Assembly: GCA_963921795.1 (NCBI GenBank)
Contig: OY997643.1
Span: 17,809,879-17,873,878 of the forward strand
Direction of reading: 5' to 3'
DNA: 64,000 nucleotides
DNA from: Nannobrachium achirus
Lineage: Eukaryota; Chordata; Actinopteri; Myctophiformes; Myctophidae
Below, piece by piece: positions 7,390 through 62,539 of this stretch (position 1 is its first letter; the number at the start of each line of letters is the position of its first letter). The notes below the pieces were generated by a model, which worked only from the letters and a program-made list of their open reading frames with translations, had not been told where the DNA came from and searched no databases. Position numbers and translations under genes: made by a program.

Positions 7390-21140
<13,751 letters not shown>

Positions 21141-32821: not shown

Positions 32822-32916
32822 TGAGTCTGAGGGAAGCGCTCCCCGTCCGCTACAACGTTCCCTGGAGTTACTTTCAATTTAAACCCCCGATTCTCTAGAA
32901 ATAGTTGGAGTGGACG

Positions 32917-42431: not shown

Positions 42432-42658
42432 ATGTCTGCAGACTCATATCTGTTCTTGTGTTTGACATTGTTGTGTTCATTGTGTGCCTCCTCCTCTTCC
42501 TCTTCCCCCTCTTCTTGTCATTTACAGGCTCATGTTGATCTCAACTCCATGTCTCAGGAAGGAGACTTCATTCTGGGAGGTTTGTTTGCCTTGCACGTCA
42601 GAGGACGTTTCCCTGTGCTCAACTTTACTGCTCACAGACTGGGACCCACTTGTAGTCG
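42432..42658 (+). CDS. OlfC gene 2 exon 1
   Basis: Signal peptide followed by [12 protein letters not shown] and [12 protein letters not shown]. The donor chosen is CG|GTTGGT, because it gives the same phase (two bases over) as gene 1 and leaves Cys-Ser-Arg before exon 2a. The donor is weak, and GTATCA a few bases on is an alternative of another phase. Confidence 0.75.
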
Positions 42659-45600
42659 GTTGGTATCACATACTGTACATAATGTATCTATATCTATATC
42701 TATATCTATATCCAGGGGCGTCACAAGGGGTAGGAAAGTGGGACTGAGTTACTGGGGCCCAAGGTGGAGGGGCCCTAATAACTTTATCTATTGAAAAATA
42801 GCAGATATACAAGCTCTTGTAGATCTTAATTTTAACCATCTATCATGGTTAAAATGAAGTTTGAAGTTACAATGGGTGTGTATGTGGAGAGAGGCCCTTC
42901 CACTGCTCCCTGTTGAAAGTGGAATATCCCTTTAATTAATCAAGATTAGTCGCATGTTTAATCGCATATAAACATTTCATCTGAGAAGCAATTTTATTTC
43001 AAATAAAATGCATTTTGGTATATGAGTGAGTTTTTTAAATCAAAAAAATTTAATCACGTTAGTTTTCTGCAATTAATTAAGCGAAGTTAATCAGTTAAAG
43101 TCCCAGCCCTAATAATTATAATAAAAACAGCTGTTACAATTTCAAACATGCAAGCATGACCCACTTTAGTCTATTAGTAGTTTAAGGACTAGTCTGGTAG
43201 TCTTTTTTATGTCCAATGTATTTGTTTTCAAGTTCATAAAGAACACATAAATGCATTTGAAATTTGTTTTTTTACTGTATATGCATTGTGGCCCTCTGGA
43301 GTGAAATCAAAGTTGTTCACCCCTGATTTATAGGATCCTCTCAGTCCTGGACTATAAATAAATCCTATAAATAACGTCACACAGTTATTTATATCTGCCG
43401 GTTTTTATAGTAAACTATAATAATATACCGGTAATAGTAATAGTTTCAGATTAATAGGGTTCAGATGCTCTCAGTCCATGGTGTTTGTCATCAAATATCA
43501 TCAGATAGTATGTTATATTATGTAGGCCTATATGTATTAATTAGGGCTGGGATGCGATTAAAAAATGTATCAAATTAATTTTCAGGCTTTGTAATTAATT
43601 AATCGCATTTTAATCACATATTAATATTTTACCCGAGAAGCATTTTTTTCAGGTAGAACACATTTTGTTGTACGAGTGAATCAACGAGTGAGTTTTTTTT
43701 AAATCTAAATTTCTCATCCACTGGGCCAAGCAAAGCGCTCTGATCGGCTACTTCTCCCTTTGCGTTTATTGTCTCTTCTTGATTCGTGCATCGCTATGAT
43801 CGGAATGCCCGGAAATGAAGGTTCTGTGGTGCAAAAACTAAGTGCGATTAAAATGCTTAATTTTCTGTAATTAATTAATCACAATTAATCTGTTAAAGTC
43901 CCAGCCCTAGTATTCATATTTATAATATTATAGTTTCAGATTAATATCCTTCAGGAGGGCTCAGAGGATGGTGTTTGCCATCCACCACATAGTACAGTTT
44001 ACAGTTTAGGCATTTAGCAGACGCTTTTAATCCAAATCGACTTACACTAAGCAGGTAATACTTCAATATAATAAGCAAGATAATAATGTCAGTACATTAA
44101 CAACAATATAACAAATGCATAGGAATATCAATCTCGAAAAACAATATCATAGGTAGACTTCTAAAACCTAAAAATGCTATCTAGCTTCATGTATGGTCAT
44201 TGAGGGAAGGGGAGTGTTACAGTAGTGCTATGGGTTTAGGTGGAGTCTGAAGAGGTGAGTTTTCAGACCACGCGGCGAAAGCTATAGGAAGTGAGTCTGT
44301 AGTTCTAATGGAAGCTCGGGAGTGAGTCTGTAGTTCTAATGGAAGCTAGGGAGTGAGTCTGTAGTTCTAATGGAAGCTAGGGAGTGAGTCTGTAGTTCTA
44401 AGTGCGACAGGGAGTTTATTCCACAGTTTGGGGGCCAGAAGGGCAAATTGTTTAGGACGAGTGGATTGTTATCCTGGGGTTTTTAGCGAGGGTTCTGTCA
44501 GCATCCATGTGTTGGCTGATCTGAGTGAACGGGTGGGGGTTGCGATAGGGAGAATTTACTATGGAACCGGGCAGAACCTCGGCCGTCAGGGGTAGGTAGG
44601 TAACGCCTCAATGTCTAAAGCTGACCTGACATCATATTGTTGACGAGGTCTCTTTTCGCCCTTAAGGCGTCTTACTGGTTAATATTAATATGTATTAATA
44701 TATAGTTTCAGACTGACAGGCTTCAGGAGGGCTCAGACCATGGCATTTGCCATCCAACAGGTAGTATTATATGTTATTAATATTATGTATTATGTATTTG
44801 TATTAATATGTATATCTATTAATATGTTCATTAATGTGTATTAATATGTATATGTGTATTAATGTGTGGTGTTTGCCATCCGTTAGATAGTATATGTATT
44901 AATATTAATAGTGTGTTATCTATATATATTAATATTATGTTATATCTATATGTATTCTTATTAATAGTACCGTATGTTATATACCTTTATTATCCCACGG
45001 GGGAAATTCAGTTGCCCACAGGCAGCACAGCAGTTATAGTAGAGGACCTGGGTAAGATATGTATGCGCTTAACTTAGGAGAGAATTTCTCAACTGTTACT
45101 GTTATGACTAATATGACCCCTGGGAACAACGTCAGAACTTTGCGAAATTCTCTATCCGGGGCGAAATACCCCAAAATGACCACGCCCTTTTAAAAATGAC
45201 CACAACTTCCAACATGGCTTTATCTTCTAAACCGTTGGAGCTACACATTTTCTGAAGTGCTCAACATGTTCAGAATACCAATGTTTAGGGGGGCATATAC
45301 GTGTGTAACATTTCTAATTTCGATAGTTTATGACACATAGGTTGTTTGTTATCTCCAGTTTTAACTCACTCCTAGAACTCTACACTCAATCTGGATGAAA
45401 CTTTATGTTACATAATGATACATGTAATAATGTATCACGATGATGTCATGAAGGTCGTAGTGTAGTATGTGAAACGGCACATGCTAACTCCATCCATCTG
45501 GAGGTGTGGACATCTGGACGTGTACACTTTTTTACGGTCTATGGGTTTGCCGCTCTGACATAATTCTCTGACATCACTGTGCAGAGGAACCACTCTAACA

Positions 45601-46550
45601 GAATGGCTTTGCTGCTCTGACGTCACAGCCTGGCTTCAGTGTGATGTCACACAAACAGAGTCCCTTTTATGCCCATATATGGAGTTCCCTGATGTCATCA
45701 ATATTAAGCCCATAATAAGTTGCCTGGCGGTGCCAGCCTCTATCACACACTTCACTACCGCAGGGGGTGGTGTTGAGTGCAGTCTGGTTTATTAACCAGG
45801 CAACATAATAAGGACTTCACAGGACTTCATATGGGAATGCTCATACCCATGCCCATACAGTATATGGAGGCCACATCGGCCACATACCACACTAACGATC
45901 CATATATGGCCAAGACAGATGGTCAAGCAGCCCATATCTGTGTGGCTGGTTCTACAGACAGGGATCTCCATCTATGGGCATAAAAGGGTATGATGTCAGA
46001 TGTCATAGACATCATAGGACTTTCACATAACAAATAACTGAGTAAGCATGTTTGGGCTCTCACAGCATATCTCCATATAAAGTACACAGGTCTCCATATA
46101 TGGGTAACTGGTCGATATACATCAGTGGCCAGATGGCCAAGACATCAGTGGCCAGATGGCCAAGACATGGCGCGACCTCGCCCTTTAGGGTGAGGTCGCT
46201 TGTCGCCCTGAGGCATCTTACTAGTAATAAGAGTGCTCTAGTGCTCTACCTTTGTGTTTCCAATGCTCAAGAAGCATATAATAGACACAATGTTTGCTAA
46301 AATGTGGCAAAGATTAAGTAAGGTACAGTAAAATACATTTTCAGATACACGTCATCTTTGAAATATGTTGAGATACACCCAGACATAAAGACAAGCATTC
46401 CAACATGTTTCTAATGGTCAAAAAAATCTAACCTCGGTTCGAATAGTGAAGCGGTGAATTTGAGCAGTTCCAGATCTGATTTTATTCTATGTTTTGTGTG
46501 CAGCTCGTTTTGTGTGATAACGGCACTGATCACACAAGTGCATGCGTGGA

Positions 46551-46624
<74 letters not shown>

Positions 46625-49246
46625 GTTTTCTCCGTGCCGTTTGTAAGTTTCACTTTCGGTTTAGAAATCAGCATCGCTCGCTCTGTCTGGCTCTCTCTCT
46701 CTCTCCCCATCTCTCTCTCTCTCTCTCTCTCTCTCGCCCGCGCATGCGCAGATCCTGTTCATACTGGTGACTGGTGAGACGACGGTCGGCAACAGACAAT
46801 TCTGTATAGGCCTATTGGAAGCGTCACCGCTTCAAAAACATGAAATAGACACCAAGTTTACATTTAGCTCATCTGGTAGTTATAGCCAAAACTGTTTTGA
46901 GACGGCGGCCATATTGGATTTGGCCACAATGATGACCCCGAAGAGTCGCTGGGCACCCTTCCTAAATCATTAGAGCATGCTCTGGGTTCCCTAAGGCCCT
47001 GGACAATAAGAAGTTGACCGTTTTTACCGTTTCTTAGTTGTTTTGTCATAAACTATCGAAATTAGAAATGTTACACACGTATATGACCCCCTAAACATAG
47101 GTATTCTGAACATGTTGAGCACTTAAGAAAATGTGTAGCTCCAACGGTTTAGAAGATAAAGCCATGTTGGAAGTTGTGGTCATTTTCAAAAGGGCGTGGT
47201 CATTTTTGGGTATTTCGCCCCGGATAGAGAATTTCGCAAAGTTCTTACGTTGTTCCCAGGGGTCATATTAGTCTAGAACAGTTGAGAAATTCTCTCCTAA
47301 GTTAAGCGCATACATATCTTACCCAGGTCCTAGACTATTAAAGGTTACAAGTTACAAAGAGGTAAGAAAAAGAAAAAGAGTACTGTTGTGTGCAGACAAA
47401 AGAAGCAAGGCACAAAAAAGAAGAACATAAACATGTGTCAAAAAAGCTGTCATAAAAAGAAAGAAGAATATATTCATGGATTGCATTTGTACTTTTTGTA
47501 GTCCTACACCAGCCATTTTGAGGACCAACACAGGTGTTTTGATTAACGTAGAACATTGGTTCTATGCCAATCAGACAAATTGAACACCTGTGTTGGTCCT
47601 CAATATGGCCGGTTTAGGACTACAAATGCAACCCATGAATAGATAAAGTGACCAAGAAACATTCAACGCTCATAAGTGACACATCACACACTAAAAAGCA
47701 ATGCTCAAAGCTCAACTTAACAGACAGCGCCAAACAAAAGTGTACATAACAGTCAATGCTAGTCACTGCAACACAAGTATCTCACCACCATATCAACACA
47801 GCAATCTATACGTATTCATATTAATAGCATGTTGTATCTATATGTATTCATATTAATAGTATGTTTTCCATCCATCAGATCAACAACAACACCAAACTGC
47901 TGCCCAACGTAACTCTGGGATTCCGTTTCTATGACACCTGCCTCAGGTACTACGATATGTTATTAAAGTGCGGGTGCCATGATTTTTCCCCCCTCTAAAA
48001 CATGATTATCTACTATTATAATTATACTAGGAGGAAGTTTTTTTTTCCAAAAAAGTGTACAGAAAGAGTTAAAATTATGTTTTTATGTGGCCACATCCAC
48101 CAGTTAATTAGTATGCGTGGTTGTCATGGTGGGTGGTGACCCAGCTGAAGTTAGCCACACCCACGTATGTTGGGTGAATGGTAATTAGGGGAGGGGTTGA
48201 TTCTGTGATGTAATAAGTATCTGTGTTTTTGGACCGGCACGTTTGACCCCACAAGGTGGCAGCCTACAGCTAAAACCCAAATAGAAAAGCAATACATAAT
48301 TGCTCATAACAACCACACCAGGGGGTCTAATGAAGTACTGTCAACCTCCTAGACACATGAAAACCAGAAAAAGTACAAAACTATGGCACCACCTCTTTAA
48401 GTATTATTATTACTATTATTATTATTATCACCTGCCTCAGGTACTATTATATGTTATTATGTATTATTATTACTTGCGCAAGCAGAGTGCGCTAGTACTG
48501 TTTTCGGTATCTCTGTCATCATCATTAACATCCAATCAGAGACCAGCATATTATTATTATTATTGTATCCATATTTATATTATAACATTATAGTTTTTAT
48601 GACACCTGTCTCAGACTAGCTGGGGCCTACCACGGAGCCATGTCATTGGTCAGTGGCAGAGGAGAGCCATTCTCATTGGATGAGAGCTGTGTGGGCTCTC
48701 CTCCGGTGCTCGGCATTGTGGGTGATGGGTTCTCCACAAATTCTATGGTCATCTCCAGTGCTTTAGGATACTACAGGATACCTCAGGTAAGATTATATAA
48801 GCATGAATATATCCATAAATATATCCATAAATATATCGGTGATAGACCGGTGATTTTCACTATTTCGTAAAAGTTTTGAATACTAACTATTGTACTGTAC
48901 ATTAGATCCATTGGAACGAGCAGGGAGCCTACTACAGTAACTACTATACTTTAATATGTACTTGCACCAGCAGAGCGTGCAAGTACTGCGATCGGCTGGC
49001 TATGTCGGTGTCCTCCCCAATCAGGGACCAGCATTTCTGGCAACGTCATCCTAGGGATGTGAAAAAATCGAAAATCGAAAATCGACTCATGCTCATCGCG
49101 ACTCAAAAAGTATGAGTCGAAAAATCGAAAAAAGTTTTTTTTTTCTTTTTATTATTATTATAATTTTTTTCTAAAGTTTTTCCCCCAAAAATGTTTTAAT
49201 CGCTTGTTCGTTATAAGCGTCAATGTTTTCCAAATGTGAGCGGACC

Positions 49247-49330
<84 letters not shown>

Positions 49331-51713
49331 GGGGACGAGTGAATGTCTGTGTTGCATGCATGGATCGCAGATTCGCATGCATGCGGCGCTGGTCAGGTCC
49401 GCGGACTACTGGTTGAGAAACACTGCTGGTCTGTTCGTGTGCACGCGTCATAGCAGTGCGCGCTGACTGCATGTGTTTTGTTTACCTCCTGCCTTTGCAT
49501 GCATGCTTGACACGAAAGCTCGCACAAAATAAATATACTACTCGCCGTTAATGCGACACACCCGTGGACATGGTCGGGGAGGGAGAGCGAGCCAGCGAGG
49601 CAGACCAAACAAAGCTCCACATTTGATACACTATTCTGGAGTGCCAGCCTGAGCGCTCCCACAACGGAACGGTTCCATGGATTTTGTCACTCCGCTTCTA
49701 GTCTATAGAGAACAGACTCCATGCTAACGCAAGGAAAAAGAGCAATTGTTTATTATAATTATTATTAGGGCTTTGATGCAAGTTCTGGTGGGTGCTGCTG
49801 CAAGTTGTGTTGCTTAAAGTAATGCGCCGTTGTGGTCTCCTCTCAGCTGCAGCTTAGCGGGGGGAAAAAAAGTGAAAAAAGTCGATCGACTCGTCGATTT
49901 TCGTCCGCGACGCGTCGATTTGAAAATAATGCGTCGATTAACATCCCTAATTAACAGCCAATTCACCCTATTCACGCCCCGCCCACTCAGCAACTTCCTG
50001 GTGCTGACGTCACGCTTTGAAGGGGAAACCCTGCTAAAAGCCCATAGAGTTAACACAGAAATCGAAAATTTTATGCAATTTCCGAATAGTAAATTATAAA
50101 ATACGGCTATCATGATCAAGAACACAAGATAGTGAAAGGAACAAAGCATTATAATTTACTTTACCGTTCAAAATAATGATTTGTTGGCTTTAAGTCCAGC
50201 GATTTCTGTGTTAACTCTATGGGCTTTTAGCAGGGTTTCCCCTTCAAAGCTGACGTCAGCACCAGGAAGTTGCTGAGACATTTGTTGAGAGGGCGGGGCG
50301 TGTCCATGAGGGACCAGCATTCCTGGTGATGCCAGTGGTGATGTCACTGGCATTGCCAGTGGTGATGCCAGTGGTGATGCCAGTGGTGAGCTAAAGTTGT
50401 AGTTACTATTGTTGGCACCTGGACAGATCCAGTTAATATTGTAGTATTCTAACAGGTGAGCTACATGGCAACCTGTCCCTGTCTGAGTGACCGCAACAAG
50501 TTCCCTGCTTTCTTCAGAACCATCCCCCATGATGGATTTCAGGTACTTGAATACTTTAATACTTTAATACTCTTTCTTCAGAGCCATCCCCCATGATGGA
50601 TTTCAGGTACTTGAATACTTGAATACTTTAATACTCTTTCTTCAGAACCATCCCCCATGATGGATTTCAGGTACTTGAATACTTTAATACTTTAATACTC
50701 TTTCTTCAGAACCATCCCCCATGATGGATTTCAGGTACTTGAATACTTGAATACTTTAATACTCTTTTTTCAGAACCATCCCCCATGATGCATTTAGGGT
50801 ATACTTTAATACTTGGGGTTAGGTTTATTTATGTTTGTTTATGCAGTTTTTAGTCTTGGTCTTTCTATGTTTCTTATGTAGGCTTGATGTTTTGTGGTGT
50901 ACTGCAAGTGACTGAGATCCAACGATGTTTCATTTTCTACATGGGGAAAGTGACAAATAAAATGATTCTGTTTCTGATCTGTCCATTGTTTGTCCAATCA
51001 GGTGTGAGCTGTATCTTACCTGTCCATTGTTTGTCCAATCAGGTGCGAGGAATGCTGCAGATTCTGAGGCGGTTCGGATGGACCTGGGTCGGCATGGTGA
51101 TCTATGACGATTCGTTCGGTCACCAAGCTGCCAAGGCCATGCAGGGGGAGCTAGAGAGCTCTGGCTTCGGCTGTCTGGCATACGTTGAGGTAATATTAAT
51201 TAGTGCGGCAGTAGGGCAACAACACTATTGTCCGGCAAAAGATTATTACGGTCAACATAGCCAATCAGGAAGCAGCACAATTATTATGGTCAACATAGCC
51301 AATCAGGAGCAGCATTCTCGGTGACGTCACCATTATATAGAGTAAGTCTGATTGTGAGACCCCAGACATGCGTCTGTGCGTGTCGATATCTCTCAATGTC
51401 TCTCAGTCCTTGTCCCCTTTTATGGGCATAAAAGAGATTATATTGGTGCGGTTGCCCTAAAAGGGCATCATCTGGAAATCAGATGTAGAGGTCAGCTCCA
51501 TATATGGAGATCTAGGTGATGATCGAGTCGTCTCCATGTATGGATATCCAGGGTTTGAACTTTGATGAGGTGATGTCACATGATGTCACGTGATGTTGTG
51601 TTGTATTACTCATCTTAGCTGTATCTTACTGTACTTTTTTTCATCATGTATATCTGTACTTTAACTGCTGTCCTGACTCAGTGGCAACTGAATTTCCCCA
51701 CTGAATCAGTAAA

Positions 51714-51771
<58 letters not shown>

Positions 51772-51918
51772 GCAGGTTTTCCGCAGACACTATAAACCAT
51801 GGGAACTTCAGAAGATTGTCTCTGTTATGAAGAATTCCACGTCTCGAGTCGTCATTACATTTACCCAATATATGGTACCTCTGCTTAGAGAGGTCATTAT
51901 ATACTTATATATACTTGC

Positions 51919-51978
<60 letters not shown>

Positions 51979-54141
51979 AATCTATAAATTAGCCAAATCT
52001 ATGTCTGTGGGCTCTATTTTGATTATCTTAAGTAGCAGCTTTTATGCCTTAACTTAAAGGCCTGTACATGTCCATACTGTCTCCGACCACTGAGCTTTTT
52101 GTCGTAAAGGTCCGGATCAACTACAAAATGACGCCACTCGCATCTTCTGAAAAGCATTACCACGAATTAGAGTTCGGAAAGCTGCATGTCAGAAAGTTGG
52201 AACGCTCATTTTCACGGGTCAACACATTTGTTGCAATCTAAAACATCTCTTTGAAGGTCCAAGCTGCCAAGGCTCCATAGACTTCCATGTAATTCATAGT
52301 GCACGGATCATGCACGCCCATGCCTAGATCATGCACCATGTGTGTGCACGCTCTTCACAGCTTTCAAACAAAAATATCCGCTTGGAAATCCGTTCAGGCA
52401 TTCATGATATAGCAGCCATTATGTTTTCTTCAAATGCAAACAAACATGACTATGACAAACATGACAAAACAAGACTCAGAACACCTGCTGCAGTCAAGCT
52501 GCACTGCGTGAATCTTGTGCTGTATCCAACATGTTAGCCATGTAAACAAACACACAGCGACATTTAGAACTAAACGTTGCTCTCAAGAAAGTTTTTAAAA
52601 ATATTTTTTGAGCGAGAAATAGACGACGTAGTATCAGAAAATGGATTCTATCTAATCAGCACTTCCTTGTTTTCTAAGGCGACCGTGTCGCGCTAGGGGG
52701 ACACCCAGCGCAACATTTGCTGTGGAACACTTCCAGCCGTCTGTAAACAAGGAAATACTTTGTTTTGTTTTTAGTTTTGAGTCAAATTATTAATTTTATT
52801 TAGTAGGCGGGTAATAAGCGTGATAATGAATGGCTCCTTGGTGAATGACGATATATAACATCCCCTAACAAACTCCTTCTAGGGGAATAATCGGATCAAC
52901 GTCAAATTCGCTCAGCATACACAAGACAGCTTAACGATGAAAAGTCATCAAAATCGCGAGTTTTCCTAAAACGGCGTGACCTTGAGAAGAGTCAAACTTC
53001 CTTCGCCAAACAGGAAGTGCCCCCTCTTCTGATTGGTCGATACTTGATTGTTCCTTTTTTTGGCTATAACTCATCAACTGTTTGTCGAACAAACTTGTGA
53101 GTGGTGTCATTTGACTTGGTTCAGAATCCTTGTTCTTCATTGGTGTAACTTATAGCCCCGTCCTCACTGCTTAAAGAGGTTAGATATTGATTTGTTAGTT
53201 ATATAGGTATACCTATATAGCCTAAGTAGATAAAGAGACAGAGACAGATAACTAACCAGTAAGACTCCCTAATCGGGAGATAATCGACCGTCAGGTCACA
53301 GTGTGATTTTAGGCCAAAATGTATAGGAGCAGTGTCCAAAAATGTGTTTGAAAAAATCTGCCTGATGGTGGCGCTATATGGGACAGATGCATGTTGATGA
53401 AATGAGTGTAGACATACTGTGTAGTACCGATTTGCGTGATTTTAGGGCAAAATCTGTAGGAGCATTGTCCAAAAATGTGTTTGAAAAAATCGCACTGATG
53501 ATGCCGCTATATGGGACAGATCCATGTTGATGACATGAGTGTAGACATACTGTGTACCAATTTGCGTGATTTTAGGGCAAAATCTGTAGGAGTAGTGTCC
53601 AAAAATGTGTTTGAAAAAATCGGCCTGATGGTGGCGCTATATGGGACAGATCCATGTTGATGACATGAGTGTAGACATACTGTGTAGCGATTTGCGTGAT
53701 TTTAAGGCAAAATCTGTAGGAGTAGTGTCCAAAAATGTGTTTTAAAAAATTGGCCTGAAGGTGGCACTAAATGGGACAGGTCCATGTTGATGAGATGAGT
53801 GTAGACATACTGTGTACCGATTTGCGTGATTTTAGGGCAAAAATTGTAGGAGCAGTGTCCAAAAATGTGTTTTGCAAGAATCTGCCTCATGGTGGCGCTA
53901 GAAGAGGGCCATGTGAGAATTGATGGGTGGAGGTTGTGGTTTGGCAGGCAAGGAGTGTGTGTGGAAAATGTCACATGAACAGAGGCAACGATGGCGGAGA
54001 TATGAGCAGGGCAAAAGTGTGACGTGACAGACAGACTAACTGACTGACTGACTGACTGACTGACAGACGGTGGAGGTTTTGATAGTAAATGCGACCTGAC
54101 GGTCGCAATGAAGCATGGACCTGCATGTACTGTATACTGAG

Positions 54142-54179
<38 letters not shown>

Positions 54180-54554
54180 ACGGAGGCGATCCGAACCTCC
54201 CCACCCGGCTTCGAACCCGGGTCTCCCGCGTGAAAGTCCAATACCTTAACCATTACTCCAAAGGGATATCCCTATGGAACGAGAGCAGATACTAGACTTT
54301 TGAGGCTTCAGGCTGGGGCTGCGACTCTCTCCGCCACACTCACCCCCCTTTGACCTCCTCCTACGGGGAAGCCCGGATCCGGGTCACGGCACCAATGTAA
54401 CGGAGGTGATCCGAACCTCCCCACCCGGCTTCGAACCCGGGTCTCCCGCGTGAAAGTCCAATATCTTAACCATTACTCCAAAGGGATATCCCTATGGAAC
54501 GAGAGCAGATACTAGACTTTTGAGGCTTCAGGCTGGGGCTGCGACTCTCTCCGC

Positions 54555-54591
<37 letters not shown>

Positions 54592-56119
54592 TATATATAT
54601 AATCTCTAGGTAAGGAGACAGAATGTAACGGGTCTACAGTGGATCACTAATGACGCATGGGCCATGTACTGTGTATACTGAGTAAATATATGATATAATA
54701 TATATACTGTATATATTCCCTAGGTAAGGAGACAGAATGTAACAGGTCTACAGTGGATCACTAACGACGCATGGACCATGTGGCCTCCTCTTTACTCTCT
54801 GGCCAACATGCCGTATCTTGGAGGAAGCCTGGGCCTGGCCATCCGTCGAGGAGAGATAGACGGTCTGCAAGACTTCTGGTTAAAAATACACCCTAAAAAT
54901 TATCCCAACAACACTATAGTGAGTCTTTTATTAATGGTTAAAAATGAACCCTGATAATGAGCCCAACAACACTATAGTGGGTATTTTATTAATGATTAAA
55001 AATACTCCTTGATAATGATCCCAACGACACTATAGTGGGTCTTTTATTAATGGTTAAAAAAAACTCCTTGATAATGATCCCGAGCCCGAAGGGCAGCAGC
55101 ACCTCATGAAAACTGCTAGTCTGGCGGGCCATCACTGATACTGCGTTCACTCATTCCTTCCCCAGTATCAGGTCTGGACTTTGGCGTATAGGCAGCGAGT
55201 ATGAGAACTTGGCCCCTATCATTTTCTGATCGGGGCCAATCGGTGACTGCGTTTCAACTGCTGTGATGACAACAAGTGATGGTGACGTAGATGCATGCTG
55301 CAGCATTTTCAAAACAACATGGCTGCCCTCGATGCAACAAGTGTAACAGTTAACGCTGAAACGATAAAACAAGCAATAAGTGAAGTTATTTCAGAGTTGG
55401 AATCAATTACAACAATTAAAAAACAGGAGTATGCGCTAGTGGAGTTCATCGGCCCGAAAACACGTGTTTGTTTGCCGCTCTTCCGACTGGCTGTAGCCAT
55501 AAATTATAACTCCTGTAGAGGGTTTATTTTGAAGACGTTGAGAGAAAACGTCTTCCAAATAAAAGCACTCTACAGTAGTTATAATTTATGGCTAGACTGG
55601 CTGCTCTGTGATGACAGACGTTTTGCTACGTTGATTGTTTAGAGGAGTCTGTCTGTCAAGGCAAGTACTCCCTCCCAATTTTCAAGCTGCCTATCCACGA
55701 GTTTCCAACGCCCCATAGTGCATTGCGCAGACGCTGTACCGAGCTTCCGGCGCCGCAGCCTTGTGTGATTTACAAGCTCACAACAGGCTGCATCTGCGAC
55801 GCGACGTGAGCTTGTATGTCTGCTGTTAAACCGGAAGTGTGGTCCAAACAGGTCCAAATAATCTCCAGTAAACTCCCGCGGAAACAGGTGGATAGGCCAA
55901 AGCCAGACTCATATTGTGGGAAGGAACGGGTGAGTGAATGTGAATGCACAGTATGAGGCTGGCTGGTCAGGCTAGAAAACTGCTAGCATAGCCACTTGCA
56001 TAGTGCTTAGACTTTGCAAGACTCTTAGACTCTTTGATTGATGAGACTGTTCCATAATGCTGAATATAATCACGGGTAGATAGCTATTTCAACCAATCAG
56101 ATTGCTTCGCTAAGTGTTA

Positions 56120-56207
<88 letters not shown>

Positions 56208-56208
56208 A

Positions 56209-56306
<98 letters not shown>

Positions 56307-56977
56307 CAGGTCAGGGAGTTCTGGGAGAAGATGTTTAAGTGTAGCTTCAGAGCCAGTGCAGGAAGTCGTTGTAACGGTTCAGAGGATCTGGGGACGGTGA
56401 AGGACTCATATCTGGGCGTGTCGGACCTCAGAGAGGATTACAACGTGTACAAGGCTGTGTTTGCTCTGGCTCATGCCCTGCACGACCTGATGCACTGTGT
56501 CCCAGGGAGAGGCCCTTTCCCTGGGCACAGCTGTGCCCGTCTGAGCTCCGTACAACCATGGCAGGTATACGTGTGTGGCAGGTATACGTGTGTATGCGTA
56601 TATATATATATTAAGGCTGGGACTTTAACTGATTAATTGCGATTAATTAATTACAGAAAATTAACGCGATTAAAAAAATTAACGCATTTTAACCTTCAGT
56701 TTCAGGCATACTGATCATAGCGATGCACCAACCAAGAAGAGACAACAAACGCAAAGGGAGAAGTAGCCGATCAGAGCGCTTTGCTTGGCCCAGTGGATGC
56801 GAGATTTAGATTTAAAAAACTCACTTGTTGATTCACTCGTACAACAAAATGTGTTTTATTGAAAAAAGATGCTTCTCAGGTCAAATATCGATGTGCGATT
56901 AAAATGCGATTAATTGCGATTAATTAATCACAGAGCCTGTAATTAATTAGATTAAAAATTTTAATCGCATCCCAGCC

Positions 56978-57025
<48 letters not shown>

Positions 57026-60000
57026 GGCTGGGATTCGATTAAAAGAATTTATCAAATTAATTACAGGCTTTATAATTAATTAATTGCAAAATTAATTAAT
57101 TGTACCTGCATTTTACCTAAGTAATTAATCAAGTAGTTAATCACGTACTGTACATTATGTAGGCGCGTGTGCAATCCGTGCATGTGGTGTAATTAGAAAA
57201 AAAACCTTGTATGCTAACATCATTGTACTGAGTGTAAACTTGTAAATCAGTGTTTTGGGTACTGGGTGCGAGCATCAACCGGGAGCCAATGACGGGAGAG
57301 GAAAAAGGAAGGTGACCTCTCATGTTGATTCATAAATAACATCCATCACGATCTCCATCTCCAGTTCGTCTATTATCTGCAGAAGGTCAAGTTCACCACA
57401 TCGTTCGGCGATGACGTTTCGTTTGATGAGAACGGCGACGTATACGGTCATGACGTCATGAACTGGGTGCGGCTTCCCGATGGGAGCGGGAGGCCTCAGC
57501 ATGTGGGCGTGGTCAAAAGGTCCGCCTCCGGGGAGGAACAACTTCTTATGGATGAAGACAGAATCTTCTGGAACTCAGACTCCAAAAAGGTCTCTTCAAG
57601 GAAGTCTCATGACACGCTGTTTTTACAAAACATAAGTCTTTATCACAAAGGTCTTCAACAGGTCCGGGACCCCTAGGGGGTCCTCAGAATTACTACAGGG
57701 GTTCCTCCAAATCTTTGAGTGATAGAAACCTTTCCCCCCTTTTTCATATTAACCACTTGGAGCCTATAGTGTTCATATTCTCAGAACTTTAGCCAAAAAT
57801 AGCAGATCTACAAGCTACAATGCCTTGTGCTGCGAGGCGTTGTGAGCTTGTAGATCGTCTATTTTCCGTAAAGAGGTTTGGTGTAGAGGGGAAAAAGAGC
57901 AGACTAAGTACAGAGTGAAAGGTCAAGTTTATTAAGTATTGACGGTTCAAGTGGTTAAATATCTGAAAACGCAAATTGACATGAATCCAAAATACTTGTG
58001 GGGGGTCCCTGCTTCATCTCTCTCTCAACTAAGGGATCCTGGGCCTGAAAATGTTGAAGACCCCTGCTTTATTATGTATTAAAAGGTTTTAACTGAAAAC
58101 ATGGCTCCAGTGAGCCATGGCAGGTTTTTACCACCTGGAGTGCCTAACGCGTTCCCACGTGTGTTAACTATTATGCCAAATGGTATTGTGTTTGTTGTCT
58201 CCACCAGCCGAAGGCATGGGGGAGAGTATGTTTTCCCCTCCGTCCGTCCGTGTGTCCGTCCGTCCGTGCGTGCGTCCGTCCGTCCGTGTGTGTGTGTGTG
58301 TCCTCGCAGTTTGTGTGCAGCTAATCTCAGTCGCCGTTGGCCCGGTCGCTGCCAAAGTGAGCACACACATTCCCTGGATGCCAATCTAGAACCTCTGCCC
58401 TAAATGTTTCAAATGGGCCTTTTCTAGCGCCACCTAGTGGCCGATGTTCGCAAAACACATTTCTGTGCACTACTCTTACAGATTTTGTCCAAAAATCCTA
58501 CAAATCGGTAGGCAGTATCTCGACAGTCATGTGATCGACACGGATCTGTCCGATTTTGCATATTCCATCCTGATTGGCTAAGATTGGCTTCCAAAGTTTG
58601 TAGGATTGAGCCGTTTTGAACAAAATGCCTCAAATCCCAAACGCAAAGTGCAATTATCATGAAATCGCACACACACGTTCCCACTAGGTCGAGGAAGAAA
58701 TGCCACTTCACATTTTTTAAATCAGCCTCATGGTGGCGCTATAACAGGCCGATTTGGGGTTTTACCTATAACTCCACCGATCAGTTTCAAACTTTGTAAG
58801 CGCACTCCCTAGAGGCCAAGGAAAAACCCTTTCCCTGCATTTTTCACATCAGCCTTTTCTAGCGCCACCAGGAGGCCGACTTATGTAAAACAATTTTTTT
58901 CCTATTATTCCTTGAGATTTTATTAAAAAATCATGCAAATCGGTACACAGTATCTCTATAGTCATGTGATCAAGTCCGATCCGTCTGATATTTCATATTC
59001 CATCCTAATTGACTAATATTGGCTTCCAAAGTTTGCGGGATTGCTCAGTTTTTGAACAAAATGCTTCAAATCATCAACGCAGTTTGCGATTACCGTGAAA
59101 TTTGCCACACATGTTCCCACTATGTCAAGGAACAAATGCTACCATTTTCATGTTGGCCTTTTATAGCGCCACCAGCAGGTAGACTTTAGTAAAACACATT
59201 TTTGGAACACAATGCCTCAAATCATGCATGCAGTGTCCGATTGCCATGAAAGGTCTAAGGTGAAGAACATATTCCAGCCTTTTTACATTGGCCTATTATA
59301 CAGTAGCACCACCAGGACGCATGGTCTGGTGGAGACCTGTGCTCGGAAGAGCACTGCTTCTAGTTATCGTTGATTTGTCACCTTTACAACAAGCCAGGTA
59401 CAGACTGTAAGTATCTGGCATTCGTGGAATGAGCACCACAGCCAAACGTGTGGGTAGCGGCCCTCCAAAATGGTCAAAATGGCCTGGCAGACCTGCAATA
59501 CTGTTCTTTTGGTGTTCACCTTTGTTGCTTGGTGCATTGAATGATTGCACTCTCCCACAGTAATAAGGAAAAGAAAAAAAAGAACACATAGGCCTGTTGG
59601 CCATTTTACACTTTGTTGATGTTAAGCTCAGTGTCAGGGAAGCCCAAAACGAGAGTAAAGCTGGTTGCACACTGCACTGTGTTTTCGTTGCGTTTTGGAA
59701 ATCCGAAATCTGTAGTCCAGGGAGAGAGAGAGGAAAGAGAGAGAGAGCAAGTGACTCAGTGCGACAGCTGCGAAAATCGTAAAAAATCAACCCTGGTTCG
59801 AAAATAAATATGAAACGGGCGGCAGTGTGCAAACGTGATTGACATAACGTGGGGTAGATTTTTTTATTTTCATGCTCCGAAATTCACTCCGATATTCGTC
59901 CCGAAAAACGCAACAGTGTGCAAAGACCTTAAATGCTAGCAGAACATCATTTCAAGCCATTTTGGCAACATTTTGGTCGGCGCTACCCACACGTTTGGCT

Positions 60001-61497
60001 GTGTAGCTCATGCCTCGAATGCCCCATGCTTACAAGCTGTACCTTGTTGTAAAGGTGATGAATCAACGATAAAAATGGTATATGGTAAAGGGGAGATATA
60101 ACGGACGTGAGTCAAGTTTCCTTTCTTTTTGTGCTGAGTTTATATGTATAAATTATAATGTTATTCAGCCTCCTACGTCAGTGTGCAGTGAGAGCTGTTC
60201 TCCTGGAACCCGTGTGGCCAGAAGGAAAGGAGAACCTTTCTGCTGCTTTGACTGCATCGCTTGTTCTGAGGGAGAGATCAGCAATCAGACTGGTTGGTTA
60301 ACATTACTGATAGTTAGTAAACAATGAGACTGGTTAGTTAACATTACTGCAAGTTAGTTAACAATGAGACTGGTTGGTTAACATTACTGCTAGTTAGTTA
60401 ACAATGAGACTACTGTTAGTCAGGGGTGTAGTGGAGCGGGAACAAATTTAGTTTGTTTTCATATTACATGAGATTGGTTGTTATATCGCAAAACCAGCTG
60501 AATACACTTGCTCTCTTACCGTTCGTCAGTAGAGTTGCAGCTTAATTCCATGTATTAGATTCATACACATTCATATTACATCTGCATGTTTTTATAGTGT
60601 GTGCATGTCTGAACATGCATGTGAATGTGTGTGCATTTGCTTACGCACGTGCATTGTGAGGCTCTCCCAGACACCTAAAAATAGCACTAACACTGCTGCT
60701 AGTTAGTTAACAATGAGACGGGTTAGTAACATTACCACTTAGTTAACCCCATTTCCACTGTAGGGCCGACCCAGAACTAGAACCAGAACTTTCCAGAACC
60801 AAGAACTTTCAAGAACCTGTGAAGTTCCGGGACCAAGTTCTGCTTACGTTTCCATATAACCAGAACTAACCGGGAAGGTTCCAAAAAAGAGCAGCAGCAT
60901 TGCTGGCCCCAACCTTAGGTTCCCAGAACTCAAGTTTAGTTCTACCTCAGGAGCAGGACCGAAAAAAGGTTCCAGGAACCTCGTCTGAAACCGGGCTGTG
61001 TGCAATGGAAACAAAACCAGAACCAAAAAAATAGTTTCAGGTTCCACCTTTCAGTGGAAAGGGGGCTATAGAGACTGGTTAGATTACATCACATCACTAG
61101 TTAGTTAGTTTACATTAGTGGGTTTGTCTGATCAGGGCCTTAGTGGCTGTGCTGCTTTGCTGTGCGCTATAGCGTTAGGGTCAGGGTTAGAGTCCTAACC
61201 CTAATAATCCTACTGTACAACATTGAGTCAGCTCTCTGTCTCTCTCTCTGTCTGGTGGTGTTTGTGTTGAGTCCAGGTCCCGCATGCTGCCATAAAGAGG
61301 AAAGCTCAATTAAACATTTGAAAACAACGGCCAATCAATTAACGCCAGCATTGATCCTGTGAGTCACTCCCCTTGTTTCCACCCACAGCAGTCTGAATTG
61401 AGTGACAGATTAAAATCACAATGCAAGTAAACAGAATACATTTTAATGTTAATAAACAGAAGACAAGTCCTAGTTAACTCACTGAGGAGAGACATGG

Positions 61498-61570
<73 letters not shown>

Positions 61571-62539
61571 GGGATTTCTTTAATATCGAGGTCCCTTGGC
61601 CTTAAACCATGCTGTGTTTGTCCAGACTCTACAGAGTGCACCAGCTGTCCAGAGGACTTCTGGTCCAGTCCCCAGCGTGACCACTGTGTCCCCAAGAGCA
61701 TCGAGTTCCTCTCTTTCCACAAGGCTCTGGGGATCTCCCTGACGACCATCTCGTTGCTGGGCACCGTTTTCTGCGTCGTCGTCCTGGGGATCTTCATCTA
61801 TCATCGGGACACGCCCATGGTGCGCGCCAACAACTCAGAGCTAAGCTTCCAACTCCTGTTGGCGCTCAAACTGTGTTTCCTGTGCTCTCTTCTGTTCATT
61901 GGTCGTCCCAGAATGTGGACCTGCCAGCTGAGACATGCAGTGTTTGGCATCAGTTTCGTTTGGTGTGTCGCTTGCATTCTGGTAAAGACTATGGTGGTGT
62001 TGGCCGTGTTCAGGGCCTCCAAGCCTGGAGGAGCAGACATTATGAAGTGGTTTGGTGCTGTGCAGCAGAGAGGAACAGTTCTGGTTCTTACCTCCATCCA
62101 GGCTGCTGTGTGCGTCACATGGCTTGTGTCTTCCTCACCAACTCCTCATAAAAACACACAATACATCAGTGATAAGATAGTCTATGAGTGTGATGTGGGA
62201 TCAACGGCTGGTTTTGCAGTGTTGCTGGGTTATATTGGTTTACTGGCTCTCCTTAGCTTCGTCTTAGCATTCATGGCAAGGAATCTTCCAGACAACTTCA
62301 ACGAAGCCAAGTTCATCACGTTCAGCATGTTGATCTTCTGTGCCGTGTGGATAGCCTTCATCCCGGCATATATCAGCTCTCCAGGCAAATATGCAGATGT
62401 TGTGGAGGTGTTTGCTATTTTAGCGTCTAGTTTTGGCCTTTTGGTGGCGCTGTTTGGACCAAAGTGTTATATAATCCTTTTGAAACCTGAGAGAAACACT
62501 AAGAAGTCCATCATGGGTCGCGGTGCCAACAAGACCTAG
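42432..62539 (+). CDS. OlfC gene 2: V2R-like class C chemosensory GPCR (12 exons)
   Basis: Twelve exons (42432-42658, 44712-44760, 47879-47946, 48615-48786, 50456-50542, 51043-51189, 51776-51892, 54724-54918, 56310-56564, 57365-57589, 60169-60292, 61626-62539) join in frame to 2580 nt, 859 residues, all GT/AG. It has the same domain order and expected role as gene 1. The hinge motif is NDAW, so an acidic residue is kept there. Ancestral exon 2 is in three pieces (289 nt total, equal to gene 1) and exon 3 in five (801 nt). Exon edges with splice sites are tandemly duplicated at many junctions. The 20-kb span is due to repeat-filled introns. The least certain call is the exon 1 donor (GTTGGT). 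Confidence 0.87.
43542..43909. mobile_element. hAT-type MITE with near-perfect 8-bp duplication
   Basis: TAGGGCTGGGATGCG...GTCCCAGCCCTA with flanks GTATTAAT and GTATTCAT (7 of 8 identical). Member of the family at 21616-22656 and 56613-56981. Confidence 0.8.
43995..44600. repeat. SINE-like repeat with 36-nt tandem units
   Basis: CATTTAGCAGACGCTTTTAA and CCAAATCGACTTACACTAAG is a very common fish repeat end. GAGTGAGTCTGTAGTTCTAA with TGGAAGCT occurs three to four times at about 44289-44402. Confidence 0.55.
44712..44760 (+). CDS. OlfC gene 2 exon 2a
   Basis: 49 nt coding for [16 protein letters not shown], between TTTCAG and GTAGTA. It is unambiguous by alignment with gene 1 exon 2. Degenerate copies of this exon with its flanks lie upstream (about 43443, 43929) and downstream (about 44862, 47862). 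Confidence 0.82.
45036..47338. mobile_element. 2.3-kb element with about 290-bp terminal inverted repeats
   Basis: AGGACCTGGGTAAGATATG at the left (about 45044) through TTTCGATAGTTTATGACAC (about 45336) is matched as reverse complement at 47043-47332. The outer ends read ATAGTAGAGGACC and, on the other strand, ATAGTCTAGGACC. The interior has GCCCATATATGG repeats, a CT microsatellite and the dispersed repeat of 6.7 kb, but no transposase. It lies in the intron between exons 2a and 2b. Confidence 0.7.
46553..46735. repeat. (CT)n microsatellites
   Basis: CT runs at 46553-46620 and 46689-46735; open frames across them are low-complexity. Confidence 0.95.
47472..47640. mobile_element. Small palindromic MITE
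   Basis: Arms ATTGCATTTGTA...TAGTCCTAC..CAGCCATT and GAGGACCAACACAGGTGTT are mirrored by AACACCTGTGTTGGTCCTC, AGGACTACAAATGCAAC and CATGAAT. About 170 nt. Confidence 0.65.
47879..47946 (+). CDS. OlfC gene 2 exon 2b
   Basis: 68 nt coding for [20 protein letters not shown] plus CL, ending with AG of a split Arg codon at GTACTA. The acceptor CCATCCATCAG is itself a near copy of the end of exon 2a (CCATCCAACAG). Confidence 0.82.
48615..48786 (+). CDS. OlfC gene 2 exon 2c
   Basis: 172 nt coding for [34 protein letters not shown] and GYYRIPQ. The 16 nt before it (ATGACACCTGTCTCAG) repeat the last 16 nt of exon 2b with one change, and the shared AG is the acceptor. Confidence 0.87.
49052..49949. 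mobile_element. hAT-like element with TAGGGATGT ends, containing (GT)n
   Basis: TAGGGATGTGAAAAAATCGA at the left and GTCGATTAACATCCCTA at the right are inverted. ATCGAAAATCGACTC motifs lie inside. A GT run fills 49249-49329. No target duplication could be made out. Confidence 0.6.
49985..50275. mobile_element. Fold-back MITE
   Basis: CAACTTCCTGGTGCTGACGT with AAGGGGAAACCCTGC and AGAGTTAACACAGAAATCG at the left is mirrored at the right (about 50200-50273). About 75-bp arms around an AT-rich centre. Confidence 0.75.
50456..50542 (+). CDS. OlfC gene 2 exon 3a
   Basis: 87 nt, the same length and borders as gene 1: [12 protein letters not shown] to [10 protein letters not shown]. Acceptor CTAACAG, donor GTACTT. 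The end of the exon with its donor is repeated four more times downstream. Confidence 0.9.
50511..50815 (+). repeat. 64-nt tandem repeat of exon 3a end plus donor
   Basis: CATCCCCCATGATGGATTT starts at 50521, 50585, 50649 and 50713, and with one change at 50777, an exact 64-nt period. Each unit has TTTCTTCAG, 25 nt of exon copy and CAGGTACTTG; the last unit has lost the donor. Confidence 0.97.
50980..51042 (+). repeat. Duplicated acceptor region before exon 3b
   Basis: TGTCCATTGTTTGTCCAATC followed by AGGTG occurs twice, 41 nt apart. The first AG is followed by GTGTGAGC, the second by the exon's GTGCGAGG. Confidence 0.9.
51043..51189 (+). CDS. OlfC gene 2 exon 3b
   Basis: 49 codons, [17 protein letters not shown] to FGCLAYVE, with the YDDSFG motif. 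The donor GTAATA follows GAG. Gene 1 has no intron here. Confidence 0.87.
51600..51771 (+). mobile_element. LINE 3' tail with (TGTC)n abutting exon 3c
   Basis: TTTAACTGCTGTCCTGACTC and GGCAACTGAATTTCCCCACT are followed by AGTAAAG and about 14 TCTG units. It is the same tail family as at 4600. The TCTG run becomes the pyrimidine-rich tract of the next acceptor (TGCAG at 51771-51775). Confidence 0.75.
51776..51892 (+). CDS. OlfC gene 2 exon 3c
   Basis: 39 codons, [20 protein letters not shown] to VPLLRE. It is homologous to the second half of gene 1 exon 3b. The donor GTCATT is non-consensus. A second TGTC run (51921-51977) starts 28 nt into the next intron. Confidence 0.82.
52060..52990. other. 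OlfC gene 2 intron, no gene seen
   Basis: No exon-like or clearly repeated sequence recognised; ORFs are short. Confidence 0.4.
53018..53160 (+). repeat. Single unit of the 129-nt repeat
   Basis: CCCCCTCTTCTGATTGGTCG, AACTGTTTGTCG and GTGTCATTTGACTTG match the array at 19378-19840. Confidence 0.75.
53290..53930 (+). repeat. 130-nt tandem repeat, five units
   Basis: AAAATCTGTAGGAG.AGTGTCC recurs near 53318, 53449, 53579, 53709 and 53839. The units also contain ATGGTGGCGCTATATGGGAC and GTGTAGACATACTGTGTA. Confidence 0.9.
54105..54664. repeat. tRNA-like 219-nt duplicate within copies of the exon 3d edge
   Basis: Two 219-nt units (about 54177 and 54396) carry, on the minus strand, TGGAGTAATGGTTAAGG and GGGTTCGAAGCCGGG, like A and B boxes of a tRNA-Glu-type gene. 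The stems do not pair properly, so it is a tRNA-derived repeat. AT runs flank it. TGTACTGTATACTGAGTAAA at about 54127 and a copy of the first 50 nt of exon 3d at 54610 enclose it. Confidence 0.7.
54724..54918 (+). CDS. OlfC gene 2 exon 3d
   Basis: 65 codons with [16 protein letters not shown] and [14 protein letters not shown], from TTCCCTAG to GTGAGT. A decoy copy of its start lies 114 nt upstream, and copies of its end lie 58 and 116 nt downstream. Confidence 0.87.
54876..55078 (+). repeat. 58-nt tandem repeat of exon 3d end plus donor
   Basis: CACTATAGTG occurs at 54912, 54970 and 55028, with GGTTAAAAAT and TTTTATTAATGG in each unit. A fourth, partial unit follows. Exact 58-nt period. Confidence 0.97.
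55106..55982. mobile_element. Element with imperfect inverted ends, containing nested hairpins
   Basis: AAAACTGCTAGTCTGGC...TTCACTCATTCCTTCCC at the left is mirrored at about 55915-55982. Inside are a 100-nt palindrome (55496-55597) and the inverted relative of the 22.7-kb MITE (about 55683-55892) with the hairpin module (55766-55827). A 115-codon frame (55295-55642) shows a weak QEYALVEFI motif reminiscent of RecQ-like helicases but breaks off at the palindrome. Confidence 0.5.
56122..56306 (+). repeat. (GT)n microsatellite ending at a splice acceptor
   Basis: About 185 nt of GT with one CACACG interruption. It stops directly before TTCAG at the start of exon 3e, so the repeat is the acceptor's upstream tract. 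Confidence 0.97.
56310..56564 (+). CDS. OlfC gene 2 exon 3e
   Basis: 85 codons, [13 protein letters not shown] to [13 protein letters not shown]. It corresponds to gene 1 exon 3d with a small deletion. The donor GTATACGTGTG is duplicated 17 nt downstream with the preceding GGCAG. The length is a multiple of three. Confidence 0.9.
56613..56981. mobile_element. hAT-type MITE, uninterrupted copy
   Basis: TTAAGGCTGGGACTTTAAC...ATCCCAGCCCTA. It shows the intact form of the element interrupted at 21834-22486. A partial further copy follows the AT run at about 57023-57105. Confidence 0.75.
57365..57589 (+). CDS. OlfC gene 2 exon 4
   Basis: 75 codons, [20 protein letters not shown] to WNSDSKK. Acceptor CATCTCCAG, donor GTCTCT. 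Lacks the acidic duplication of gene 1. Confidence 0.88.
57797..57866. repeat. Hairpin module, copy e
   Basis: AAATAGCAGATCTACAAGCT and its complement around a CTGCGAGGCG centre; imperfect on the left arm. Confidence 0.7.
58235..58300 (+). repeat. (CCGT)n simple sequence
   Basis: CCGT/GCGT units with a short GT run. Confidence 0.9.
58400..59320. repeat. Dispersed repeat, inverse orientation to 29.2-30.1 kb
   Basis: AGCGCCACCTAGTGGCC, ACAGATTTTGTCCAAAAATC, GGCAGTATCTCGACAGTCAT and AACAAAATGCCTCAAAT recur two to three times, complementary to the 29.2-30.1 kb and 53.3-53.9 kb repeats. Confidence 0.6.
59362..60078. mobile_element. MITE with about 110-bp inverted ends
   Basis: ATCGTTGATTTGTCACCTTT and CAGCCAAACGTGTGGGTAGC at the left are mirrored at 59960-60075. 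A second nested pair of ends (GTTGCACACTGCACTGTG and CAACAGTGTGCAAAGACC) lies inside. Confidence 0.7.
60169..60292 (+). CDS. OlfC gene 2 exon 5
   Basis: 124 nt, cysteine-rich domain, nearly identical to gene 1 exon 5. It ends in one base of the split Asp codon. The donor GTTGGT is weak, and the exon end with its donor is repeated downstream. Confidence 0.92.
60283..60420 (+). repeat. 40-nt tandem repeat of exon 5 end plus donor
   Basis: AAT(C/G)AGACTGGTT starts at 60283, 60323 and 60363, and AATGAGACTACTG at 60403, an exact 40-nt period. Each unit has TTAACATTACTG and AGTTAGT. Further relics lie at about 60704-60752. Confidence 0.97.
60736..61068. mobile_element. MITE-like element rich in CCAGAAC words
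   Basis: CCCCATTTCCACTGTAGG at the left and CAGTGGAAAGGGGGC at the right are inverted. The interior repeats CCAGAACT and GGTTCC motifs on both strands. Confidence 0.65.
61498..61570 (+). repeat. (GACA)n microsatellite before exon 6
   Basis: About 18 GACA units ending 55 nt before the exon 6 acceptor. Confidence 0.97.
61626..62539 (+). CDS. OlfC gene 2 exon 6: seven-transmembrane domain
   Basis: 914 nt to TAG 62537-62539, the same length as in gene 1. [52 protein letters not shown] and GPKCY are all present. Long stretches are identical at the DNA level to gene 1. Acceptor TGTTTGTCCAG. Confidence 0.95.

Follow-up and report, generated by a model that had tools for sequence, protein, structure and literature searches.

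The OlfC genes of the window and the twelve-exon model of gene 2

We analyzed a stretch of 64,000 nucleotides (nt) from Nannobrachium achirus (assembly GCA_963921795.1, contig OY997643.1, here C6:17809879-17873878), hereafter called the window; positions given without a contig name are positions in it. The window holds two OlfC receptor genes, gene 1 (approximately 7390-21140) and gene 2 (42432-62539), and it is gene 2, and in particular the introns that set it apart from its sister genes, that concerns us here. In the 1.66 Gb of genome searched, the class C seven-helix domain has at least 151 matches (150 of 376 candidates were scored). Gene 2 carries the domain at C6:17871587, where PF00003 matches above the Pfam cut-off with 277 bits, which assigns the gene to the OlfC/V2R class. 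As a first-pass annotation of this DNA had proposed, the coding sequence is cut into 12 exons; all 11 introns are bounded by GT-AG and the spliced frame is open over 859 codons, and the exons reach further on both sides than that annotation had placed them. Full-length zebrafish OlfC genes have six coding exons in fixed phases (accessible part of PMC1764893), a stereotyped layout from which gene 2 departs. Fish proteins of similar length, named calcium-sensing receptor-like by their sources, match gene 2 with approximately 65-69% identity over 95-100% of the query. Compared with five fish homologues, 10 of the 11 junctions are seamless; at 1/2a, the join in gene 2 falls short by two residues, and small gaps lie a few residues from junctions 3c/3d and 3d/3e (a slash marks an exon junction throughout).

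We compared gene 2 with twelve paralogs, namely, gene 1 and eleven others fetched from the genome. The ratio of nonsynonymous to synonymous substitution rates (dN/dS), obtained for 11 of the 12, lies at 0.12-0.40 overall; by region, it is 0.18-0.32 for the ligand domain, 0.17-0.40 for exons 4 and 5, and 0.12-0.18 for exon 6. On these grounds gene 2 appears to be a working OlfC receptor gene whose splicing from 12 exons is predicted. In the ligand domain, the synonymous distance (dS) from gene 2 to every sampled paralog is 1.0-1.6, compared with 0 to 0.58 in five pairs of paralogs; the contrast is smaller in exon 6 (0.27-0.50 versus 0.02-0.25). Because its distances to the paralogs exceed those between paralogs, gene 2 looks like a deep, single lineage.

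Three introns are confined to gene 2

To place the additional introns, we relied on paralogs within the same genome, on which the gene specificity of each intron rests. In a census of exon 2, in which 150 places were scored out of 190 first-look candidates, the exon is unbroken across both break sites of gene 2 at 147 of the 149 other places. The two exceptions, both kept in the count, turned out to be a gap of Ns in the assembly at C15:52.079 and a broken, stop-containing copy at C5:59.92. A corresponding survey of exon 3, in which 144 of 640 candidates were scored and whose counts hold among the matches listed, gave a more differentiated picture. Breaks 3c/3d and 3d/3e are present in all 12 examined paralogs and break 3a/3b in 11; in the twelfth, C11_8.467, exon 3a was not found. 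Two apparent fusions of exon 3 were rejected, that of C11_8.467 for this reason and that of C5_59.922 since it contains a short intron. As the examined paralogs carry the same breaks, introns 3a/3b, 3c/3d, and 3d/3e are a property of the clade that includes genes 1 and 2; 3/4 and 5/6 are introns of the six-exon layout. Break 3b/3c behaves differently: the sequence is unbroken at 19 of 20 clade places among the matches listed, gene 2 being the exception, and in all 12 examined paralogs (C5:62.72 is counted in both sets). The exon sequence at this site reads GAG/GTT. On this evidence, 2a/2b, 2b/2c, and 3b/3c would be the sole gains of gene 2 among its introns. Of the six additional introns that the first-pass annotation had treated as products of a single process, three are thus new to this gene, and the other three (3a/3b, 3c/3d, and 3d/3e) are shared with its paralogs.

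Among the matches listed, exon 3 is unbroken at six places, all of them distant (34-39% identity): four in C8:28.12-28.16, one on C19, and one on C9, the last over residues 1-249. We also noted that the three exon 3 introns of the clade (e.g., 8858-9268, 9539-10296, and 10510-13820 in the window) are absent from the C8:28.12-28.16 genes and from the described zebrafish genes. These three clade-wide introns may represent an older set of gains. Separately, one clade member (C12:10876855-10877322) reads through 3c/3d, with residues 29-180 in one frame, and has therefore lost this intron or never had it.

The two introns of exon 2 end in a copy of the preceding exon's tail

Intron 2b/2c closes with a repeat of the last 22 nt of exon 2b (20 of 22 positions), and intron 2a/2b with one of the final 17 nt of exon 2a (13 of 17); in each case the copy now serves as the predicted acceptor. 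To rank these footprints, we compared the end of the exon with the end of the following intron over the 17 nt before the NAG in 87 introns of 13 genes. The scores average 4.3 (standard deviation, 2.0), and the two highest belong to 2b/2c (15) and 2a/2b (10), followed by a score of 8; the chance of these two introns holding both top ranks is 1 in 3741. The repetition is one-sided. At both junctions, the sequence to the right of the donor is not repeated in register (2/18 matches each), compared with 15/17 and 10/17 on the left, and the exon sites read CAG/ATC at 2a/2b and CAG/ACT at 2b/2c.

The starts of the two introns are also related. In a whole-genome pattern count, the 21-nt intron-start motif AGGTASTATTATATGTTATTA occurs exactly only at 44759, which is the 2a donor, and at 48439, within a copy of the exon 2b end and donor start that we call copy B. 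The 2b donor differs from this motif at two positions and is identical to copy B at 29 of 31 nt. With up to three mismatches, the motif has 164 matches in the genome, compared with 318 for the reversed control. Since only 2 of 22 positions differ at 2b/2c, set against a synonymous distance of approximately 1 to the paralogs, the comparison suggests a late gain on the gene 2 branch, of an age that is uncertain given the very few sites.

Upstream of exon 2b lie further copies of exon 2a, two of them whole and with both flanks. Of the matches found in the window, the acceptor flank of one of these (43910-43936, from the copy at 43908) comes closest to the sequence preceding exon 2c. When this 27-nt flank was searched against the window, it matched the sequence before 2c (48565-48596) with a score of 39, that before 2a (44683-44708) with 34, and that before 2b (47844-47866) with 32; it also matched the minus strand at 43412-43442 (score, 32), and the best match outside 43.4-48.6 kb scores 28. 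In a shuffle test of ten pairs of acceptor flanks, P was 0.003-0.10 in eight and 0.52 in two, compared with 0.06-0.98 in five control pairs with an unrelated acceptor. In the window search, the kinship of the acceptor flanks appears clear for 2c and weak for 2b. Both introns contain inserted elements, a foldback element in 2a/2b and an insertion resembling a miniature inverted-repeat transposable element (MITE) in 2b/2c, fragments of which occur in two other OlfC loci. The two elements lie inside the introns and leave the splice sites untouched.

Most exon-edge repeats of gene 2 lie at older introns

The first-pass annotation had reported copies of exon edges, with their splice sites, in the adjacent introns, and Tandem Repeats Finder (TRF) together with self-BLAST recovered them at the cited edges and periods: arrays of 64 nt at exon 3a, 41 nt at the 3b acceptor, 114 nt at the start and 58 nt at the end of 3d, 17 nt at the end of 3e, and 40 nt at the end of exon 5, in addition to copies of the 2a and 2b edges. 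We then scored, for each exon edge, the best copy of the 24-mer centered on it within 800 nt, using a threshold of at least 18/24; the edges of the 12 paralogs were assigned automatically by homology and GT/AG. In gene 2, 8 of 22 edges have such a copy, compared with 13-17% of random positions inside the gene (binomial P = 0.005-0.02). Under a stricter threshold of at least 20/24 (5/22), the excess over the local background is marginal (P = 0.05-0.12). Among the paralogs, 7 of 171 edges have a copy (Fisher P = 3e-5 against gene 2), or 7 of 156 when gene 0, a near-identical counterpart of gene 1, is left out (P = 6e-5). The paralogs' own intron background predicts approximately 30 of the 171, so edge copies are depleted in the paralogs and enriched in gene 2. 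The excess in gene 2 is modest relative to local intron sequence and strong relative to the sister genes.

The seven paralog copies are located at the acceptors of exons 2 (one), 3b (one), 3d (two), and 3a (two) and at the 3a donor (one), four of the seven being at the 3a donor, the 3b acceptor, or the 3d acceptor. Two of the seven come from a single paralog, C5_62.719 (L055, edges 1075 and 1162), in which the acceptor and donor edges of exon 3a agree with one another at 18 of 24 nt.

Among the eight gene 2 edges that reach 18/24, only the 2b donor belongs to a gene-2-specific intron, with the 2a donor scoring 17. The proposal that all eight edge repeats named by the first-pass annotation mark gained introns was not borne out, as six lie at introns common to the sister genes or to the six-exon layout. 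Because these introns also occur in the sister genes, most of which have no copy there, the repeats in gene 2 most probably postdate the introns. Most simply, the repeats at 3a, 3b, 3e, and 5 and the two at 3d are later duplications across exon borders, which splicing appears to tolerate and which seem to have given rise to no introns.

The copies also differ in age and in the state of their splice sites. Exact periods had been read as a sign of recent duplication, which holds for 3e and for 3a, where three of four copies are 97-100% identical and the fourth 84%, and does not extend to the 2a copies (71-81%). The idea that the copies keep spare splice sites fits most of the young ones: read by eye, three of the four at 3a, those at 3b, 3d, 3e, and 5, and copy B retain working-looking sites. 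All three decayed 2a copies (43417-44923), on the other hand, have AT in place of the donor GT. This loss would fit selection against wrong splicing and is one small observation.

Origin of the introns in exon 2

Taken together, these results make it likely that gene 2 gained introns by local duplication. The earlier claim that the locus has been generating introns in this way finds partial support in the three gains confined to this gene, two of which bear a duplicated exon end, and is not supported for the rest. For the two introns in exon 2, we propose that the exon was duplicated locally together with its splice flanks and that complementary losses then split it into 2a, 2b, and 2c, a scenario to which we give an even chance. 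First, a segment with exon 2, or a piece of it, and its intron flanks would have been duplicated in tandem. Deletions at short shared words, namely TTT and GTTT toward the acceptor and CAG and CCTCAG toward the donor, would then have removed a different part from each copy. Finally, consecutive splicing of 2a, 2b, and 2c, each from a different copy, would reassemble the original exon. We infer the tandem copying because each spacer starts like the sequence that follows an exon and ends like the sequence that precedes one, as would be expected between tandem exon copies, and because complete copies of exon 2a, flanks included, do lie upstream. It is tempting to speculate that this is exon fission by duplication, degeneration, and complementation, a way of making introns that would need neither a coding AGGT nor a transposon; we hold this generalization only tentatively. 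Intron transposition was also considered and rejected, as the 3' ends differ and each intron bears the tail of its own upstream exon.

Several results weigh against this scenario. Self-BLAST recovered exon ends and whole copies of 2a, but no second-copy remnant of either 2c or the 2b body, so that complete copies of exon 2 are something we infer. The footprint at 2a/2b is weak when taken alone, and self-BLAST reports the 2b/2c copy only. Intron 3b/3c has no footprint, and the edge test found no duplication at its edges. As to the flanks, two non-acceptor sites reach scores of 30 and 29 with the 27-nt query, just under the 2b flank; when the search starts from the native 2a flank, the 2b flank obtains a score of 31, which several unrelated places exceed, and the 2c flank is not among the matches listed. 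The native donor flank of exon 2, which follows 2c, shows no clear relationship with the new donors (P = 0.07, 0.22, and 0.59). Moreover, the flank tests were picked after seeing the data, in AT-rich sequence.

The main rival is repair of staggered double-strand breaks with local filler, in which exon 2 would have received a nearby stretch of intron on two occasions, and filling in of the staggered ends would have copied 17-22 nt of the exon to the far side. Two events would suffice, direct repeats of the exon end do flank both introns, and the shared start is local sequence rather than a genome-wide family. What break repair leaves unexplained is why the start of the inserts coincides exactly with a donor and their end with one and the same point in an acceptor-like flank, and why whole exon 2a copies lie upstream. 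By our own comparison of lengths, repeats of 17-22 nt also seem longer than the "short direct repeats" described for Daphnia in the accessible part of PMC3443670. We regard this explanation as doubtful, though worth keeping in view.

Gene 2 could also be decaying or misread, its repeats and odd introns then being the outcome of relaxed selection, of faulty assembly, or of an incorrect gene model. In favor of this, some of its donors are weak (gttggt, gtcatt, and gtctct), the load of edge repeats is unusual for the family, and the 1/2a join is two residues short. The 859 open codons across 12 exons, the 10 seamless junctions, and the dN/dS of 0.12-0.40, a pairwise ratio that would miss a very recent loss of function, speak against it, and we consider it improbable. 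Insertion of an introner-like mobile element with a target-site duplication appears very improbable. It would account for the direct repeats at both ends and for the related starts and ends of the introns, and teleosts do have introns derived from transposons, as in slc26a2 of notothenioids (PMC12357937). However, when membership of such a family was assessed on the start motif, exact occurrences were the two in gene 2, near matches did not exceed the reversed control, and the MITE-like and foldback elements sit inside the introns, off the splice sites. In addition, a survey of 3,325 genomes, as far as the accessible part of its report goes, found Introners in only two groups among animals and land plants, with no vertebrate pattern (PMC9860276).

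Least probable of all, by a narrow margin and likewise very improbable in our view, is the one-step origin put forward by the first-pass annotation, tandem duplication of an AGGT-containing exon stretch: tandem arrays are frequent in gene 2 and the duplicated exon end lies exactly at the acceptor, but the model fails at 2a/2b and 2b/2c because the GT is not in the duplicated exon stretch (CAG/ATC and CAG/ACT, with the right side unmatched in register at both), six of the eight repeated edges lie at introns that gene 2 did not gain on its own, and the third gain, 3b/3c, has a GAG/GT site but no edge duplication that we could find.

Features of the locus and its surroundings

The features of gene 2 are collected in Table 1. 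Beyond them, gene 0 (C6:17739400-17752400; L009/L010) is almost identical to gene 1, with a dS of approximately 0 in the ligand domain and 0.02 in exon 6; this near-identity therefore points to a recent duplication of a whole OlfC gene. Stop-free frames of 1037 and 962 codons at 430-3543 (plus strand) and 25350-28238 (minus strand) resemble, by eye, the reverse transcriptase of long interspersed nuclear elements. TRIM-like genes lie between the OlfC genes, one recognized by eye (30653-32878, minus strand) and one that matches TRIM39/TRIM35-like fish proteins (36272-37594, minus strand).

Table 1. Exons, introns specific to gene 2, exon copies, and inserted elements, in window positions
Feature	Position	Strand	Basis
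Exon 1	42432..42658	+	gene model
Decayed exon 2a copy with both flanks, 71%, donor GT lost	43417..43521	+	self-BLAST
Decayed exon 2a copy with both flanks, 81%, donor GT lost	43908..43994	+	self-BLAST
Exon 2a	44712..44760	+	gene model, homologue junctions
Intron 2a/2b, gene-2-specific, 3118 nt, last 17 nt match exon 2a end 13/17	44761..47878	+	census, footprint
Copy of exon 2a end and donor flank, 75%, donor GT lost	44872..44923	+	self-BLAST
Foldback element in intron 2a/2b, 2.3 kb; inverted arms of ~300 nt (45036-45335 and 47044-47338), 95%	45036..47338		sequence
Acceptor-flank-like sequence before 2b, weak match, meets copied exon 2a end at TTT	47844..47866	+	flank search
Exon 2b	47879..47946	+	gene model, homologue junctions
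Intron 2b/2c, gene-2-specific, 668 nt	47947..48614	+	census, footprint
MITE-like insertion in intron 2b/2c, inverted ends	47963..48400		sequence
Copy B, exon 2b end and donor start, 29/31 nt	48429..48459	+	self-BLAST
Acceptor-flank-like sequence before 2c, meets copied exon 2b end at GTTT	48565..48596	+	flank search
22-nt copy (20/22) of exon 2b end, predicted acceptor of 2b/2c	48593..48614	+	self-BLAST, footprint
Exon 2c	48615..48786	+	gene model
Exon 3a, end repeated ~4.8 times, 64-nt period (50508-50815)	50456..50542	+	TRF, self-BLAST
Exon 3b, acceptor duplicated, 41-nt period	51043..51189	+	TRF, edge test
Intron 3b/3c, gene-2-specific, 586 nt, edge duplication not found	51190..51775	+	edge test, exon 3 survey
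Exon 3c	51776..51892	+	gene model
Exon 3d, duplications at its start (114 nt) and its end (58 nt)	54724..54918	+	TRF, self-BLAST
Exon 3e, 17-nt repeat at donor	56310..56564	+	TRF
Exon 4	57365..57589	+	gene model
Exon 5, donor edge repeated, 40-nt period	60169..60292	+	TRF, self-BLAST
Exon 6, seven-helix domain, PF00003 over cut-off	61626..62539	+	profile match

Significance and comparison with known intron gains

Vertebrates rarely gain introns, and the traces of how an intron arose have usually disappeared. In this genome, a single member of a large gene family has three gains that its sisters lack, two of them retain footprints, and the many sister genes serve as built-in controls. The case thereby allows repeats with a possible role in making introns to be told apart from those that simply lie at old ones. 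If our proposal is true, the splitting of an exon between its own copies is a route by which introns can be gained, and the two introns of exon 2 suggest that vertebrate introns can arise from small local duplications of DNA.

The published cases that follow are described as far as the accessible parts of the cited papers go. They include the AGGT tandem-duplication model, a case in potato, and a list of mechanisms (PMC4974935, PMC3443670), as well as intron gains in human (PMC12124190) and in teleosts (PMC12357937, PMC3151243). Extra introns are described there in main olfactory receptor genes of cichlids and an anchovy, and not for OlfC (PMC4122780, PMC5387026). Among the open-licence papers listed in our searches, judged by titles and the beginnings of abstracts, we found no intron gain in OlfC/V2R genes and no exon split by tandem duplication.

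The new intron of ATP2A1 (Hellsten 2011; via PMC4974935 and PMC3443670) resembles those of gene 2 in that the protein is kept and duplicated exon sequence lies at the acceptor; in contrast, the exon of gene 2 is without AGGT, and neither the donor nor most of the intron is a copy of exon sequence. In the potato RdRp gene, the intron is a duplication across an existing exon border (PMC4974935), so that the splice signals come from the parental exon-intron structure and not from a coding AGGT, a resemblance that in gene 2 is seen on the acceptor side only, and weakly. Gene 2 differs from the potato case in that a single exon holds two introns, both of which finish with the tail of the exon before them, and in that the pieces appear complementary. 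The break-repair introns of Daphnia (PMC3443670) share with gene 2 the direct repeats on both sides of the new intron, whereas the intron ends of gene 2 look like local splice flanks common to both introns. Finally, slc26a2 of notothenioids (PMC12357937) is likewise a fish gene with new introns specific to a lineage; in that case the splice sites come from the element itself, while the elements found in gene 2 sit within the introns, at a distance from the splice sites.

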